A DNA stretch of 64,000 nucleotides, taken from assembly GCA_910589415.1 (NCBI GenBank), contig OU342631.1, positions 15,128,001 through 15,192,000 of the forward strand, in the 5' to 3' direction. Made by a program: the position numbers and the translations under genes. Position 1 is the stretch's first letter, and every line of letters begins with the position of its first letter. The DNA comes from Malachius bipustulatus. Lineage: Eukaryota; Arthropoda; Insecta; Coleoptera; Melyridae. Of this stretch, positions 8,292 to 42,895 are shown piece by piece. The notes under the pieces are model-generated. The model searched no databases. It saw only the letters and a list, made by a program, of their open reading frames with translations, and was not told where the DNA came from.

Positions 8292-8915
8292 TCACGTCCT
8301 TACGTACTTATAAACGACCGCAAACACTAATACACTAATCAACATCAACACCAACGCAGTCACCACTTTAGCAAACGAATTTAACCCGCTCTCAGTCGAT
8401 CCCACTGGTCTGCTGCTCTCACTATGATCATATCTTCTCCTCTTCCCTGCTAAACCTCGAGCTAGCGCTGGAAACGCAAGGCTCTGAGTGAAGGTCAGCT
8501 TATGTATGCTTTCGCTAAGTGAGTAAGGTCCCACGCTACCCCTGGCTGCGGCTCTCAAAAGGGCGTACTCCAGGTCCAAAGCGTCGAAGAGGGAGTATCT
8601 CGCTGTCATCGTTGAAGAACGTCGTCTGCTACTCTCGGTGGAATCGCTCCCTATTCGGGCCGAACGAGGGGAGGTATGGAGAGTTGTGGGAGATATAGGA
8701 GGCGCTATTGAGGTTAGAGAAGAGGTCGAGGAGGAGAGGGAGTTTTGGGTATGGTTAGCGATATCTTCCATGGAAGACAGAGGAGTTGGTAAGGGGTAGA
8801 GGTGCAGGATGCGGGCATGGTCGGGATGAAGGAGGGATGTGCTAGGTCGACGGATGCTGGGAGTTGGCGATGGAAGAGGGGAAGTTGAGGCACATTGAAC
8901 TGGAAGAGGTGAGAC
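8292..8915 (-). CDS. Last coding exon: Ser/Pro-rich, probably tail-anchored membrane protein
   Basis: The terminal exon encodes 207 residues and a stop. It opens after a strong acceptor (polypyrimidine tract then CCACAG) with GTC in phase 0. The internal Met at 8771 is not the start, because the frame stays open for 48 codons upstream to the splice site. The first half is low-complexity Ser/Thr/Pro, likely disordered. A denser, conserved-looking block follows (motifs SLFDALDLEYALLRAAARG and SLSESIHKLTFTQSLAFPAL), then a basic GKRRR patch. A single hydrophobic helix (about 21 residues, starting near FAKVVTALVLML) ends six residues from the C-terminus (YKYVRT). That layout fits a tail-anchored protein with the bulk in the cytosol. 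I do not recognise the family. Coding status is firm; the membrane topology is inferred. Confidence 0.88.
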   Translation of the reverse strand, partial: VSPLPVQCASTSPLPSPTPSIRRPSTSLLHPDHARILHLYPLPTPLSSMEDIANHTQNSLSSSTSSLTSIAPPISPTTLHTSPRSARIGSDSTESSRRRSSTMTARYSLFDALDLEYALLRAAARGSVGPYSLSESIHKLTFTQSLAFPALARGLAGKRRRYDHSESSRPVGSTESGLNSFAKVVTALVLMLISVLVFAVVYKYVRT

Positions 8916-31106: not shown

Positions 31107-32054
31107 TTCGAATTTGTAGTGATGATGGGGTAGATATATGTAGTAAGTCAGGTACCTACATCTACTCATTTTATTTTTTAAACTGGTCATATCTTAGTTA
31201 TTAAAAAACCAATTTGAATACTTTTTTCACCTGCATGTAGGTGATTTAATTGTCGTTGCGATTGCTCTTCTAATTTTCAGAACCATTTATAATTGAATGT
31301 GAAAAAAAATAAAAAAGAAATTGCGAACCATTTCATCGATTTAATAATTTTATAAAAGTGTAAGCTAATTTTGCACAAGCGAAAAACTTTTTTATCTTTC
31401 GTTTAAAGTGCTACATTAATCGAGGCGAATTGAAGCTAAGACATCAAATTATATGTTAAAGCAAAAAAAATGGAAAATTTCGGTTCAACTTCTTTAAAAA
31501 TGGACTCATAAACGGTTATAGAATTGACACATTTTCACCCTTTTTCCTACCCACGACACTGGCTTATTAATGGAAAATATGCTAATTTTATTGCATTAAC
31601 TCAAATTTCCAATAATTTTCTTCAAATCCTGTTAATTTGATTTCAAAGTTTTTTTGCCATCTTGCTCATACAATGGTTCAAAAAATTGTCAATTTTCCGT
31701 TAATGTTCAAAAAATTCAAATGGCCGCCATTTTGAAACGGCTCGACCGATTTTGCTCAAGTGCAATACCAGACCACTCCTTGTGGACATCTTACTCTCAC
31801 AAAAATTTCAGCCCCCTAGATTGAAAACTGCGGCCAGAAACCGCGCCTCAAGGACCGGATTTGGGGAACTTTGAAAGGACACCCTGTAGAAGTAACGTGA
31901 CTTTTGGATTTTTTTTCAACGAAAATCTAAAGTCATTCCCAAGCTTTACAAGAATCCAAAATTTCGTTCACTAATCTTGAAAGATAAAGCTACAGGAGCG
32001 TTTTGAAAATCGAAAAATCGTGATTTTGGAGAAATAAATATATATATAAATATA

Positions 32055-32693
32055 CAGTGCTTCCCAAAAATAACGGATAAATTCAATAAAATCGTATGAA
32101 GACGTTTTCTTTTGTTTTGCTCGGACACGTCAATCGTTATTTTTGATTTGCCATCCACGCATGTCTTTTTCGACCCCCCACCCTTAATCTCCCAAGGGGT
32201 AGCTACCCCAATTTTAAAAATTCAAATGGCAAGGTACCCCTTGCGATACCTTGATTGATAGGTTTTTTCATCCTGAATATAACAAGAAAATTTTTTTCAA
32301 ATCGGTTCATAATTAATTTAATTTAGTTTAATTTAATTCAGAGAGAAAGATAGGAAAAAATTTTAATTAAATTTTAATTTAATTTTAATACGCTTATTTA
32401 TTGCCTTATTCGATGACATTTTGCTGAATATTTTCGTTAATTATGAACCGATTTGAAAAAAATTTTCTTGTTATATTCAGGATGAAAAAACCTATCAATC
32501 AAGGTATCGCAAGGGGTACCTTGCCTTTTGAATTTTTAAAATTGGGGTAGCTACCCCTTGGGAGATTAAGGGTGGGGGGTCGAAAAAGACATGCGTGGAT
32601 GGCAAATCAAAAATAACGATTGACGTGTCCGAGCAAAACAAAAGAAAACGTCTTCATACGATTTTATTGAATTTATCCGTTACTTTTGGGAAG

Positions 32694-32698
<5 letters not shown>
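32055..32698. mobile_element. Nested CAGTGCTTCCCAAAAATAACGG foldback
   Basis: The ends are inverted copies: CAGTGCTTCCCAAAA at 32055 and TTTTGGGAAGCACTA at 32698. The arms of about 300 bp are nearly identical, indicating a recent insertion. It sits within the AT-dinucleotide tract of the host repeat and is flanked by TA. The 70-codon ORFs are arm artefacts. Confidence 0.88.

Positions 32699-32755
<57 letters not shown>
32699..32755. repeat. (TA)n microsatellite
   Basis: About 57 bp of uninterrupted TA. The homologous site in the 40.4-42.9 kb copy is also (TA)n and took a different insertion, so this tract seems to be a preferred landing site. Confidence 0.95.
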
Positions 32756-32758
<3 letters not shown>

Positions 32759-32759
32759 G

Positions 32760-32893
32760 GGCAGGTGAATTTTGGAAAACCACTTTTTCGTGATCTGGGG
32801 GTCATGATCGGTGGACATTTGATGAGTTTGGGTGATTTTCGAAAAGTGATGTCGTCCTCAATAGTGTATTTTTTTGTTAAAAAATACACTAAA
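32760..32893 (-). repeat. AGTGTATTTTTT hairpin module, copy 2
   Basis: Inverted copy of the 30462-30620 module. It begins GGGCAGGTGAATTTTGGAAA and ends with the AGTGTATTTTTTT-GTT-AAAAAATACACT hairpin (about 32865-32893). Confidence 0.8.
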
Positions 32894-33778
32894 AAACTAA
32901 AATTTTCAAAAGACTTTGAAGCCCTCTAACGGACAAACGAAGCACTTTGGTATAGAGATAAGTTTCGTCCGAGCGACTTTTTTTTACCTCAGTAATCTGT
33001 GGTTGCTCCATGTCCATGGAATATTGGGACACCTGTAATATATGTATATTTCTCCAAAATCACGATTTTTCGATTTTAAAAACGCTCCTGTAGCTTTATC
33101 TTTCAAGATTAGTGAACGAAATTTTGGATTCTTGTAAAGCTTTGGAATGACTTTAGATTTTCGTTGAAAAAAATTCCAAAAGTCACGTTACTTCTACAGG
33201 GTGTCCTTTCAAAGTTCCAAAAATCCGGTCCTTTAGGCACGGTTTCTGGCCGCAGTTTTCAATCTAGGAGGCTGAAATTTTTGTGAGAGTAAGACGTCAA
33301 CAAGGAGTGGTCTGGTATTGCACTTGAGCAAAATCGGCCGAGCCGTTTCAAAATGGCGACCATTTGAATTTTCGGAAAATTTACTATTTTTTGAATCCCT
33401 GTATGAGCAAGATGGCAGAAAAACTTTGAAATCAAATTAACAGGATTTGAAGAAAATTATTGTAAATTTGAGTTAATGCAATAAAATTAGCATATTTTCC
33501 ATTAATCAGCCAGTGTCGTGGGTAGGAAAAGGGTAAAAATGTGTAAATGGTTCGCAATTTCTTTTTTATTTATTTTTTTTAACATTCAATTATGAATGGT
33601 TCTGGAAATTAGAAGAGCAATCGCAACGACAATTAAATCACCTACATGCAGGTGAAAAAAGTATTCAAATTGGTCTTTTAATAACAAATATATGACCAGT
33701 TTAAAAAATAAAATGTGTAGGTGTAGGTACCTGACGTACTACATAATACCTACCCCATCAGCACTATAAATTTGAAAT

Positions 33779-37160: not shown

Positions 37161-40100
37161 GAAAGTTTATGTTGTAGTTATATACGTCTTCTAGTTTCAT
37201 TATCAATTTAAACTCTATTTCAACTAATGATTGAAGTGGTAATTAAATAGTTCAGCGAACTGATTCAAATAACTAGAAGCAGGATCTGTAAGATAATACC
37301 TACATCAGACTTATTTTAACACTTCTTTATTGAGTCCAGAAATTTATCGGTAGTTCAATAATTTAATCCATTCCATTATTTCTTCAAAAGTTCAATAACA
37401 GTATCTAATTATCCAATGAATCAAGAGAGGGAAGAAGACCGAATTTCCAAGTTCTAAGTAAAAAGCTCTAATAAAAACTGTTAAAAACACTCTGGTCGTC
37501 CTAGTAATCAATCTTCTGATTGATCCGAAGAGTAAGAACGTGCTGGATGATACACTTAAAAGTTAAAAGCTTTACTCGCTTCAGAAGTAATGAAAAGTGG
37601 CCAGTTATCCATGAAATATAAATTTTTTGCCTCTATTATAAGAAGTTTAAAGTTATTTTATCTTAAAAATTTTGGAGCCGTGTCTTGTTTAATAATCTCT
37701 TTTATATTCTAAACCCCGTCAACTGCGATTTAGAAGAGAGAGGAGTAAAATGAAAGGTACATTGTCATGGGAGGAATGAAATTTGTCTGAATTGCGGGAC
37801 AAAATACTTTTCTAAAACTGATTAGATACTTCAGAGATATGTGAAAAAGAGAATGCTATACGAAGACCAAATGTTGTATTACATATATAGATTAAATCTT
37901 CAATAAGTTCCTCTAAATTAATTTCGAAAAACACACGATTTTGTTCCAAGAAATAGTAGGAACAAGAATTAAAATCAAAATAAACTAACAAAATCTATAA
38001 AACCTTCAGTATCACATAATCCACTCACGAGATTATGTGATCAAAACTGTGCTGTGTGTTGGTAAATAAATAGTACTGATGAGTCTCAAACAGGGCAAAA
38101 CACGTGTCTACAATTTCCACCTCCACTCACAGCACAACATCAATGAATTGTTGTTTTACAAGTTGTCATTCATTTCTTGTCTAACAATGACCAGTAGGTC
38201 TTTACCCACTTCTATAATCATTTTTGCTGTCTGGCGTGTATCCTATGGCGCAAGTCCTCTTTATTTTGAATTCACCTTCCAATATACCTAGAGAGTATAA
38301 AATTATATTCGTAATAATAATAATTTATCACATGTCTCGCTTAAAAAAATTCCTGCAAGAGTTCTTTATTTTGTAGCCAATCACCGGTCCATTACTTTCT
38401 GTTGAAATTTGGCTTAAACCTCCATTAAACTTTGTTGAAGGACGTTCGTTGACTATACGATTGACGGATTCTGCAGGATGTCAGGAAACGCAGGACACAT
38501 GCAGGAAGCGCTTGATATTAAATCCCATTTATGTGACATTAAATTACATCAACCGTGTCCTACCTGTTCGTAAACAATTCATTTATTGTACCCAGACTGA
38601 TCTTTTTATTTCGAAACAGTTGACCACTGATGCAGAATCTTTGATTATAGTGTTGTTGAATAAATAATTAATGTTGGTTTGTTAATCAAGTTTTCATTAA
38701 CCTTCAATATTACATGGTCGGTCTTTTGTTTCAAGTAAAAAGTAAAGCCACAACGGTTTTCGCGATTTTAATTTTTTATGTAAGGAAAATGGAGCAGCAT
38801 ATTGGGAGGCAACATTTAAAAAAAGAATGTGTTTGTTTTTTTTTTCATTTTGTGCTCGTAACTACCATTCGTATCAGTCTTCCAAGAGCTTCAAACATCT
38901 TTTATTATTAGGATGGTACCTAGAACCCTACTATTAGGGTAGGTAGAAAGGAAATTATGAAATGATAAAGTAATCTTCAATCCACTATTCCATACTAGTG
39001 GCGCTCCTCTTCTAATAAAAAACAGATTAAATTCTAGAAATCCCGTTCCCTAATTGGTGAAAATAATGTGGCAATGCGACATCAAGGTAGAAAGAAATCG
39101 CAAAAGGTAATCGAGTTGGTAGATAGGTTAACCATTTCTTTTTGAACCCTTGATCTGTCAACAGCCTGGGTCGTATCTTATCTTCAATATCTTTGCTTGG
39201 ACCAGTAATCAGATTGTATGAGTGATGCTTTTCTGATAAATAATTCTAAAATATAATTTGATTTTATAATTGCTGCAGTTTTTTGAGGACAACCTATTCC
39301 CTATGCCTAAAATCTTCTTGAGAAAGCTCCATTTGTGTTAGGATGCAAAACTTCACCTATCTTATACAATTTGGTTCCAAGAATATCACATAAATTTTTT
39401 GAAGTTCCCTGAATAACGATCTCCTTTATAAAAGTAACAAACAGAATCAAAGTCTCTTCTACGAGAAACCATCTTGGGTAAATATAAATAATTTTGGAAC
39501 ATATTATTAATATAAAAAGTACCTCCAGGTGTCCAGGTACAATAATTTGAGTCATATCTAGTTGCTACCTGTTTCACAGCTGCTATTATCCAGGGTCTCA
39601 TGTCAAATATTGTAGAAGACAAGTGAAATTTTACAAAAGCTTTTCTATAAAGTGAATCCTTAATTAATAATCACGTTATTAACTGTATTGTTCATAGTTC
39701 AACCTTTGTTCTATACACTATACTGAAGATGACGGCTCTGCTAGCGGGAAAATGTGCATGCATATATGAGCCAGGGGAACAAAAAGGAGGTATAATAAGC
39801 TCTGGTACCATGCTGTTTTTTTACGATGTTTTTGTTCACCGTCATCTTATTGTCTTGTCTCATAATGGGTTTCTAAGAGCATTTATGTTTTGATAGATTT
39901 TGCAATTAATAAATAATTACATCTTACGAAGAGTATTTTGTAAAAAATATCTACTAGAAAGTTGAAACTATCATATTTAATCAATCACACCTACCTATAC
40001 CTAATAATAGGCGAAAAAGAATACTCAAATAGTACCTGTTATAATTAGAAGTTAAGGAGTAGATTAATAATATTTAAGAATTTTCTTCAAAAAGCGACAT

Positions 40101-40410: not shown

Positions 40411-41048
40411 TGTAAAAAAACCTTCTTGCGCATCAAACGCAGAAATAGTGTATTTTTATGCGATTCAATTATGAAAATTTTTGCCGCCTTTTAAATTGGC
40501 TTTCTGAATTTTTCCATAGTCAGGTCGAATTTGCGTAGTGGTTTACTGTGAAAATTCATTTCATTTCGTTTGAAAGCGTGCAATAAAATAGATTTTTACA
40601 CATAATAAGCCAAAAAAAAATTGACAAAATTCAACAATTTCGTCCCTTTTCCTATACCCGCTACTGACTAACGATAAAAAGTTACAGGCGAGTTCTGAAA
40701 ATCGAACATTTGAAATTTTAGAGAAATAAACATCATGTAAAAAAATAATAATCGAATAATCGAATAACTCCGCCATTTCTCTTATTTGCTTCTTGAAATT
40801 TTTGAGAGTTAAAGTTTATTAGTGTAGTTGTCTACTCTGAAAATTTCAGGTAAATTCTCTCAAAAATGTGCTCATAATCAGTTAAATAAATTTAGCCATT
40901 TTTACCATTTTCTTACCCACGCCACTAGCTTATTATTAAATAGTGTATTTTTATGCGATTCAATAATAAATATTTTCTTCCTATTTTTTTTATAATGAAT
41001 ATAATGAAAAAATAATCCGATTTTTCTACCTATCAAAAAAAAAAGAAT

Positions 41049-41122
41049 GATACACTCTCGTGGTTTCGAACCCGCACCAACAGTTTACTAAGAAAGGATG
41101 TAATGAACTGATCCACGATGCG
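41049..41122 (-). repeat. tRNA-like Pol III promoter segment, copy 3
   Basis: Third copy, in the same orientation relative to its host repeat as copy 1. The B box is intact (GGTTCGAAACC-type) but the A box is more diverged (TGGATCAGTTCATTA). Confidence 0.55.
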
Positions 41123-42155
41123 TTTCATATTTGTAGTGATGATGGGGTAGATATATTATGTAGTAAGTCAGGTACCTACACCTACTCATTTTATTTTTTA
41201 AACTGGTCGTATCTTTGTTATTAAAAGACCAATTTGAATACTTTTTTCACCTGCATGTAGGTGATTTAATAGTCGTTGCGATTGTTTTTCTAATTTTCAG
41301 AACCATTCATAATTGAATGTGAAAAAAAATAAAAAAGAAATTGCGAACCATTTCATCAATTTAATAATTTTATATAAGTGTAAGCTAATTTTGCACAAGC
41401 GAAAAACTTTTTTATTTTTCGTTTAAAGTGCTACATTAATCGAGGCGAATTGAAGTTAAGACATCAAATTATATGTTAAAGCAAAAAAAAATGGAAAATT
41501 TCGGTTCAACTTCTTCAAAAATGGACTCATAAACGGTTATAGAATTGACACATTTTCGCCCTTTTTCCTACCCACGACACTGGCTTATTAATGGAAAATA
41601 TGCTAATTTTATTGCATTAACTCAAAGTTCCAATAATTTTCTTCAAATCCTGTTAATTTGATTTCAAAGTTTTTTTGACATCTTGCTCATACGGGGGCTC
41701 AAAAAATTGGACCTTTTCCGAAAATTCAAATGGCTGCCATTTTGAAACGGCTCGGCCGATTTTGCTCAAGTGCAATACCAGACCACTCCTTGTGGATATC
41801 TTACTCCCACAAAAATTTCAGCCCCCTAGATTGAAAACTGCGGCCAGAAACCGTGCCTCAAGGACCGTATGTTTGGAACTTTGAAAGGACACCCTGTAGA
41901 AGTAACGTGACTTTTGGAAATTTTTTCAACGAAAATCTAAAGTCATTCCAGAGCTATACAAGAATCCAAAATTTCATTCACTAATCTTGAAAGATAAAGC
42001 TACAGGAGCGTTTTGAAAATCGAAAAATCGTGATTTTGGAGAAATAAATATATATATAAATATATATAAATCATGAAAATATAATTTTCGGGCATTTAAA
42101 GCTCATTAATAAAGTGCTTTCAATGGCAGACAGCACACGCAACCATCTAGAGCCC

Positions 42156-42216
42156 CTCGAAGCTGCAGACGGACCGTTTCGGTCTTTTTATGACCTCATC
42201 AGTACAGCATATCGAG
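42156..42216 (-). ncRNA. Type I hammerhead ribozyme, complete core
   Basis: Read on the minus strand. Stem I 5' strand is CTCGA (42216-42212) and GCTGTA (42208-42203). The core CTGATGA follows (42202-42196). Stem II is GGTC/GACC with a 7-nt ATAAAAA loop (42195-42181). GAAA is at 42180-42177. A very short stem III of A-U plus CGG/CCG closes on one nucleotide. C17 is at 42168. Stem I 3' strand is TGCAGC, one bulged T, then TCGAG. Every invariant core residue is present and the cleavage triplet is GTC. The one-nucleotide stem III loop cannot close in a monomer. Such minimal stem III is typical of Penelope-like and retrozyme hammerheads, thought to act as dimers. Confidence 0.88.
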
Positions 42217-42480
42217 ATGGAATCCAGAGGCTACGATGCTGTCCGCCATCAAAAGCTAGGCCTTTGTATCCACTCAGTTCCACGGAACCAAGTGACTTAC
42301 AACGCCTTTCGCCATCTAACAATGGAGGCAAGAACTACCAGCAATGTGTGCCAGCTTGCGACCATCAGAGACGGCGGCCCGGTGCAGTTTTATATGCTTT
42401 TAGGCTTCACCTCTCCTCGGCCAGTGCTGACCACTGCCGGAAGATGCCATTCCATTCGCCCATAAGTAATTAATACAAAT

Positions 42481-42732
42481 ATGAAAGTTTTATTAGAGCC
42501 GTGATTATAAATCATGAAAATATAATTTTCGGGCATTTAAAGCTCATTAATAAAGTGCTTTCAATGGCAGACAGCACACGCAACCATCTAGAGCCCCTCG
42601 AATCTGCAGCTTCGAGGGGCTCTAGATGGTTGCGTGTGCTGTCTGCCATTGAAAGCACTTTATTAATGAGCTTTAAATGCCCGAAAATTATATTTTCATG
42701 ATTTATAATCACGGCTCTAATAAAACTTTCAT
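42481..42732. repeat. Perfect 122-bp palindrome with 8-nt spacer
   Basis: The arms 42481-42602 and 42611-42732 are exact reverse complements; the spacer is TCTGCAGC. The right arm plus spacer (from 42605, TGCAGCTTCGAGG) begins exactly where the hammerhead product would begin, and so does the left arm on the minus strand (from 42608), apart from one mismatch. An exact palindrome of this size is either very young or an assembly artefact. Confidence 0.92.
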
Positions 42733-42895
42733 AAATATATATATATATATATATATATCGTGGGCAGGTGAATTTTGGAAAACTACTTTTTCGTGATCTG
42801 GGGGTCAGGATCGGTGGACATTTGATGAGTTTGGGTGATTTTCGAAAAGTGATGTCGTCCTCAATAGTGTATTTTTTGTTAAAAAATACACTAAA

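Follow-up and report, generated by a model that had tools for sequence, protein, structure and literature searches.

The window, the whole stretch of 64,000 nt of Malachius bipustulatus DNA analysed here, carries on its minus strand a hammerhead ribozyme that probably processes a non-coding 441-nt retrozyme, itself probably copied from circles by Penelope-type machinery. Two retrozyme families in this one genome bear a conserved insertion signature resembling that described for Penelope-like elements (PLEs), and the wider value of the finding lies in this signature.

A complete type I hammerhead on the minus strand

By sequence and structure, the minus strand of 42156-42216 carries a complete type I hammerhead (Table 1). 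The core residues CTGATGA and GAAA, the cut site, the four pairs of stem II and both segments of stem I are all present, as the original prediction had claimed, and the cut position that it gave agrees with the minus-strand sequence. The segments of stem I are separated by TAT on one side and T on the other, stem II is closed by the loop ATAAAAA, and stem III by the loop GTC. A descriptor comprising the core, a 4-bp stem II, a stem III of at least 3 bp and a stem I of at least 5 bp finds a single match in the window, which is this hammerhead, and finds a match in 0 of 300 dinucleotide shuffles. The Rfam scan proposed as a check speaks in part against it: at the gathering threshold no family, RF00163 included, matches 42156-42216, and the best match from the hammerhead clan at E ≤ 10 is RF02275 (HH9), with 25.3 bits (E 0.0023) against a cut-off of 52 bits. 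One weaker overlapping match from the same clan was omitted from the tabulated results.

Folding calculations predict that the monomer misfolds and that the dimer forms a double hammerhead. Specifically, the minimum free energy (MFE) structure of the 61-nt monomer, at −19.1 kcal/mol, is a non-hammerhead fold, the hammerhead fold having −15.2 kcal/mol, and MFE folding of 75 nt also yields another fold than the hammerhead (z −1.61). The MFE structure of the dimer, at −44.3 kcal/mol, is a double hammerhead with a stem III of 4+4 bp around a U.U. A dimer, as proposed before, is therefore favoured, by energy only; the stricter claim that the ribozyme works only as a dimer is not demonstrated, since the monomer too can be drawn with a stem III, of 3 bp and closed by a 3-nt loop. 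Small PLE-associated hammerheads reportedly cleave as dimers, as Lunse et al. are said to have found in 2017. The window copy is like them in its minimal stem III and predicted double hammerhead, and unlike them in its long stem I with an internal loop and its 7-nt loop II; cleavage is here only predicted.

Ribozyme pairing is kept in diverged copies

We aligned the window copy with 16 of the 17 diverged copies from the genome, omitting one (L113) that ends inside the motif. Across the 17 aligned copies, 98.0% of 302 helix cells are paired, a percentage reached by 6 of 500 shuffles, and the covariation score is reached by 3 of 500. One stem I pair varies, being U-A in eight copies, C-G in six and U-G in three. 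Neither the count of pairs changed on both sides (one; 213 of 500 shuffles) nor that of pair types (459 of 500) is unusual. The core and the cut site are intact in 11 of the 17 copies and damaged in six, and many diverged copies are therefore probably dead. The damage affects C17 in L098, is a deletion spanning the cut in L099 and a 2-nt insertion within the core in L100, and falls on the first G of GAAA in L101 and L102 and on CTGA in L106. The proposal of recent function is borne out in that many copies are 98–100% identical and pairing is kept in the diverged ones, with the caveat that near-identity follows from recent copying.

The hammerhead delimits a non-coding 441-nt unit

The window insertion consists of an arm of 1.24 units and an inverted arm of 0.30 units set in a (TA)n tract (Table 1). 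Parsed by hand without substitution, the junction has the arms starting at unit positions 7 and −1; with one substitution allowed, the starts fall at 1–5. The segment 42731-42896 is 97% identical to 32728-32894, in a second copy of the host repeat, and that copy, at 31479-32894, holds an unrelated inverted-repeat insert in its own TA tract. The host repeats, at 31479-33548 and 41026-42064, have a TA tract and long inverted arms that are about 93% identical, and the palindromic insert in the TA tract of the host repeat at about 32055-32697 is MITE-like by eye. Elsewhere in the window, 8295-8771 on the minus strand corresponds to part of a conserved insect protein of unassigned function, and its four best named matches from beetles are 82–86% identical where they align. 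The proteins encoded in the window accord with a beetle, the best named matches coming from Asbolus, Rhamnusium and Tribolium.

Table 1. Features of the hammerhead, of the insertion that holds it and of a second retrozyme copy in the window.
Feature	Position	Strand	Remark
Type I hammerhead ribozyme, predicted	42156..42216	-	sequence and structure; kept in genomic copies
Stem I outer segment, CTCGA/TCGAG	42216-42212/42160-42156	-	minus-strand reading
Stem I inner segment, GCTGTA/TGCAGC	42208-42203/42167-42162	-	minus-strand reading
Hammerhead core CTGATGA	42202-42196	-	minus-strand reading
Stem II, GGTC/GACC	42195-42192/42184-42181	-	minus-strand reading
Hammerhead core GAA	42180-42178	-	minus-strand reading
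Stem III, ACG/CGT, 3 bp	42177-42175/42171-42169	-	minus-strand reading
C17 of hammerhead	42168	-	predicted cut between 42168/42167
Full 441-nt retrozyme unit	42168..42608	-	from position after cut (42608) to C17 (42168)
Start of second unit, unit positions 1-103	42065..42167	-	same direction; outer 3′ end at position 103
Head-to-head inverted arm, unit positions 1-129	42605..42733	+
Arm junction	42603..42609	.	around palindrome CTGCAG at hammerhead cut
TA-rich target tract, left flank	42041..42064	.
TA tract, right flank	42734..42758	.
Old partial copy of the 320-nt family	38024..38254	+	82% identical over 38024-38212

We find no recognisable protein in the 441-nt unit. The two longest frames have no reverse transcriptase (RT) or GIY-YIG Pfam domain, no frame in the unit is of PLE size, and neither a search for homologues of the plus-strand frame nor NCBIfam and solved structures gave a lead. 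Judged by its sequence, the unit is a non-coding retrozyme and not an autonomous PLE. The original prediction had pointed to both kinds of element; the retrozyme part stands, in that the 441-nt tandem unit is non-coding and of retrozyme type, and an autonomous PLE is discounted, because there is no RT or endonuclease ORF. As in metazoan non-LTR retrozymes, a single type I hammerhead marks off each of the non-coding units, which are both dispersed and in tandem. A weak Pfam match (E 0.0023; 18.5 bits, cut-off 22) had suggested that an exon of BRAP2 was captured antisense to the hammerhead; this was dropped, as blastn at E ≤ 1 finds nothing similar between the element and the host BRAP2 gene (C16:29092831-29093154). 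Rfam miRNA, snoRNA and UTR matches at about 42497-42771 were dismissed, most of them being due to the palindrome.

Head-to-head insertions and two fixed 3′ ends in the 441-nt family

In the 544-Mb assembly, 39 of 245 candidate places were scored for the 441-nt unit, and they hold 176 matches; counts of places and ends are taken from the 150 matches listed of the 176. Both strands occur in 16 of the 39 places, and among the matches listed every one of these reads minus then plus, that is, head to head. The longest arm has 20.2 units, and other arm pairs have 4.90 laps versus at least 5.12 (read to the stretch edge) and 3.41 versus 6.54. The outer 3′ ends are fixed: among the matches listed, and excluding ends that meet a stretch edge, 36 of the 38 resolved ends (29 loci) lie at unit positions 98–108 (12 ends) or 127–140 (24 ends), the other two lying at 59 and 89. 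Six of the nine resolved twins have one 3′ end of each kind. By eye, a TA-rich run starts 20 of 22 flank ends at 13 loci; the exceptions are the right flank of C17b, which opens with seven other bases, and the left flank of L095, where the TA run is only about six.

The inner 5′ ends are scattered. The window junction had suggested a rule that 5′ insertion ends are set by the ribozyme cut, and the other loci disagree with it. Among the matches listed, one of 47 resolved 5′ ends away from the window is 7 nt or less from the cut, where 1.6 would be expected; not counted in the 47 are the two arms of the window, two arms whose start at position 3 adjoins a mismatch, and two fragments, C1:44746231 and C3:35597040. 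RNA ends at 42167/42168, as had been predicted, are thus generally at odds with the insertions, and the template would usually run through the cut.

Six of the ten junctions read (the window, C1b, C6a, C3, C6b and L095) overlap by 2–7 nt, and four (C4, L093, L094 and L096) contain 1–24 extra nt. At C3, eight variants from the reference are common to both arms, in the laps covering them, and five of the eight are absent from the eight other loci compared. At C6b, five variants are common to both arms, and two of these are absent from the other loci of that set. The arrays are not always uniform, as the C17a units differ among themselves, with G293T/T295A shared patchily by three of about 20 units.

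A second, 320-nt retrozyme family shows target duplications

The window also contains an old copy of a second, 320-nt family (Table 1), and the hammerhead in it, at 38070-38114 on the plus strand, is the only match in the window at the Rfam gathering threshold. The G of its GAAA is an A, so that the motif reads AAAA; the mutated residue is G12, which we take to be the general base. Most scored genome-wide hammerhead matches belong to this family. Its loci were chosen by a scored hammerhead match (74 of 73468 candidates) and lie for the most part on contig C1; L003, L004, L005 and L008 overlap other loci and were set aside. The 441-nt and 320-nt units are similar over one 38-nt stretch that overlaps the hammerhead (E 0.055), and the search for kinship was otherwise empty.

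The insertions have the same polarity as those of the 441-nt family. Over 56 distinct loci, 63 of the 77 outer 3′ ends fall at two places, 39 at 79±4 and 24 at 227±4, and a plus-then-minus arrangement is found at none of these loci. Among the 23 head-to-head loci that lie off stretch edges, 15 have one 3′ end of each kind and none has two alike. Target duplications of at least 9 bp flank 17 of the 23 head-to-head loci versus 4 of 506 mismatched pairs, and 7 of 31 single-arm loci versus 4 of 930 in the control; as 5 nt of the element were tolerated on either side, the lengths may be slightly overestimated, in data and control alike. These duplications suggest that a head-to-head pair is mostly one insertion at one staggered break. 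The counts refer to the 320-nt family, the targets of the 441-nt family being TA repeats. The flanks here are AT-rich as well (mean 0.72 AT in 64 flanks of 25 nt).

Variants are common to both arms in 33 of 147 cases within a 320-nt locus and in 295 of 3975 between loci, and several twins share few variants between arms (0 of 21 and 2 of 26). From these sequences, the arms would often derive from one template sequence and sometimes clearly from two. The inner 5′ ends are scattered in this family too, and 3 of 86 5′ ends are near the cut, a count biased by the selection of loci for holding a hammerhead. Arrays reach the limits of the fetched stretch at both edges in L047 and at one edge in L060, and longer arrays therefore exist.

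The genome contains many GIY-YIG frames of PLE size

A search for GIY-YIG gave 150 scored matches of 775 candidates, 48 of them in frames of at least 820 aa, and many frames are in tandem at about 3.3 kb. In size and endonuclease, the frames appear to match PLEs. Neighbours were counted as a pair when at most 8 kb apart and when their scores differed by no more than 1.3 bits, like score standing for like family; of 69 such pairs, 32 are plus-plus, 14 minus-minus, 23 head to head and none tail to tail. Two plus-then-minus neighbours of unlike score less than 8 kb apart, C2:31900408/31902935 and C13:45300456/45306424, were noticed by eye and fall outside this count. At C11:3382-82839, frames mostly of 833 aa and spaced by about 3327 nt are arranged as six minus then 18 plus, head to head.

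A hammerhead-like core can be seen by eye in three sampled stretches preceding GIY-YIG ORFs; these three stretches gave no Rfam family match at E ≤ 1, and Pfam gave nothing on two PLE N-termini. Comparison of the sampled PLEs with the 441-nt and 320-nt units yields only short, weak matches (best E 0.042), and in view of this lack of convincing kinship we name no donor enzyme.

Proposed mechanism and alternatives

In the reading that we prefer, the hammerhead would serve to process the transcripts of a 441-nt retrozyme, non-autonomous and non-coding, whose tandem copies would be transcribed. Hammerheads on adjacent units would pair via the short stem III and cut as dimers, giving 441-nt monomers that would be ligated to circles. 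A Penelope-type RT with a GIY-YIG endonuclease, presumably supplied in trans, would make a staggered cut in TA-rich DNA, and both 3′ ends would prime at the fixed unit positions 103 and about 136. The cDNA would then run round the template, which we infer to be circular, for the observed 0.3 to 20 laps, and two cDNAs would join head to head, with the 2–7 base overlap at 6 of 10 junctions, to give one inverted insertion. Circles are suggested by the multi-lap arms, the shared variants and the 5′ ends that ignore the cut; multi-lap arms could also come from uncut linear multimers or from later unequal exchange. The best reading appears to be an enzyme of Penelope type with circular or multimeric RNA as its template, because the insertions bear PLE-like marks: head-to-head arms, two fixed 3′ starts and AT-rich targets in both families, and duplications in the 320-nt family only.

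Unlikely, though not far-fetched, is a template consisting of linear, uncut multimers read through from genomic arrays, for which the hammerhead would be unneeded in mobility. The indifference of the 5′ ends to the cut site fits such a template, as does the insertion in vitro of hammerhead mutants of the Anolis PLE (PMC11167929); against it, the laps of both arms at C3 and C6b share locus-specific variants, as a single circle would give, and ribozyme pairing is kept in diverged copies. That the window arms meet at the hammerhead cut because they come from a linear RNA whose 5′ end the ribozyme had made is, in our judgement, rather improbable. Both arms do begin no more than 7 nt from the cut, with an overlap at the palindrome TGCA, but this is one locus, the substitution-free parse by hand needs one arm 2 nt past the cut, and 5′ ends elsewhere show no preference for it.

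LINEs are known for twin priming (L1 inversions) and for target duplications, and the AT-rich targets also fit LINE-type machinery with L1-like twin priming. We nevertheless regard it as an improbable mover of the units: the printed flanks, by eye, have no consistent poly-A tail, the starts lie at two fixed internal positions, and the GIY-YIG elements of the genome show the same polarity. Very improbable is that the arrays are satellite DNA, dispersed through unequal exchange and through inversion, in which the hammerhead is a passenger. Long tandem arrays of near-identical units would be expected of a satellite, and the C17a units share or lack G293T/T295A in patches; yet dispersed short copies have two fixed 3′ ends, inversions are of a single polarity in the loci examined, and the target duplications of the 320-nt family already weaken this explanation.

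Returning to Penelope-type copying of circles, we see an even balance for and against its extension to animal retrozymes in general, in which both ends of one staggered break would prime on RNA circles at two element-specific sites and the multi-lap cDNAs would fuse head to head, that is, a twin-primed rolling-circle reverse transcription by Penelope-type enzymes. Given the signature and the many GIY-YIG frames of PLE size, a single protein and two short RNAs would suffice to test what moves these units.

Comparison with known systems

For retrozymes, circular RNAs have been reported, and the accessible parts of the literature present PLEs as candidate movers only (PMC7229834, PMC7761336). As far as the accessible part of their report goes, the metazoan non-LTR retrozymes of Cervera and de la Pena (2020, PMC7229834) are like those described here in their short, dispersed tandem units, which are non-coding and have a single type I hammerhead each, in a GC content below 50% (here 46% in the 441-nt unit and 45% in the 320-nt unit) and in a weak helix III that favours dimers, as in amphibians. 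The length of 441 nt is within their 150–450 bp repeats and above their 170–400 nt RNAs. The window copy differs in its 3-bp stem III and the insertions in lying in TA tracts, and head-to-head twins with two fixed 3′ ends, as found here, are not described in that part of the report. A search of the literature, chiefly open-access, found no head-to-head retrozymes, twin-primed PLEs or beetle hammerhead retrozymes; an earlier description may exist.

PLEs themselves, in the accessible part of Arkhipova et al. (2013, PMC3846280), have head-to-head inverted pLTRs with an optional 31-bp tail on one arm, target duplications of 8–10 bp and palindromes at the junction. The retrozymes here share the head-to-head copies, the short duplications (in the 320-nt family) and the junction palindromes, and to the 31-bp tail corresponds a spacing of 33 nt between 103 and 136 in the 441-nt family (103 and 129 in the window). 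They differ in that the 441-nt unit lacks an RT or endonuclease frame and the templates are of multiple laps, and in carrying a hammerhead, which that part of the paper does not mention for PLEs with inverted pLTRs. The two starts of the 320-nt unit are 148 nt apart, whereas PLE starts are spaced by 30–40 nt.

For PAc, a PLE protein of Anolis (Frangieh et al. 2024, PMC11167929), targets are AT-rich, reverse transcription starts inside the element from two nearby sites, and both strands are cut and extended. Insertion in vitro did not require the hammerhead of its element, at whose cut no reads were seen to end. Although PAc belongs to an autonomous element with an ORF, unlike the non-coding 441-nt unit, the two systems are alike in their two internal starts, the extension of both strands (here proposed), AT-rich targets and a hammerhead.
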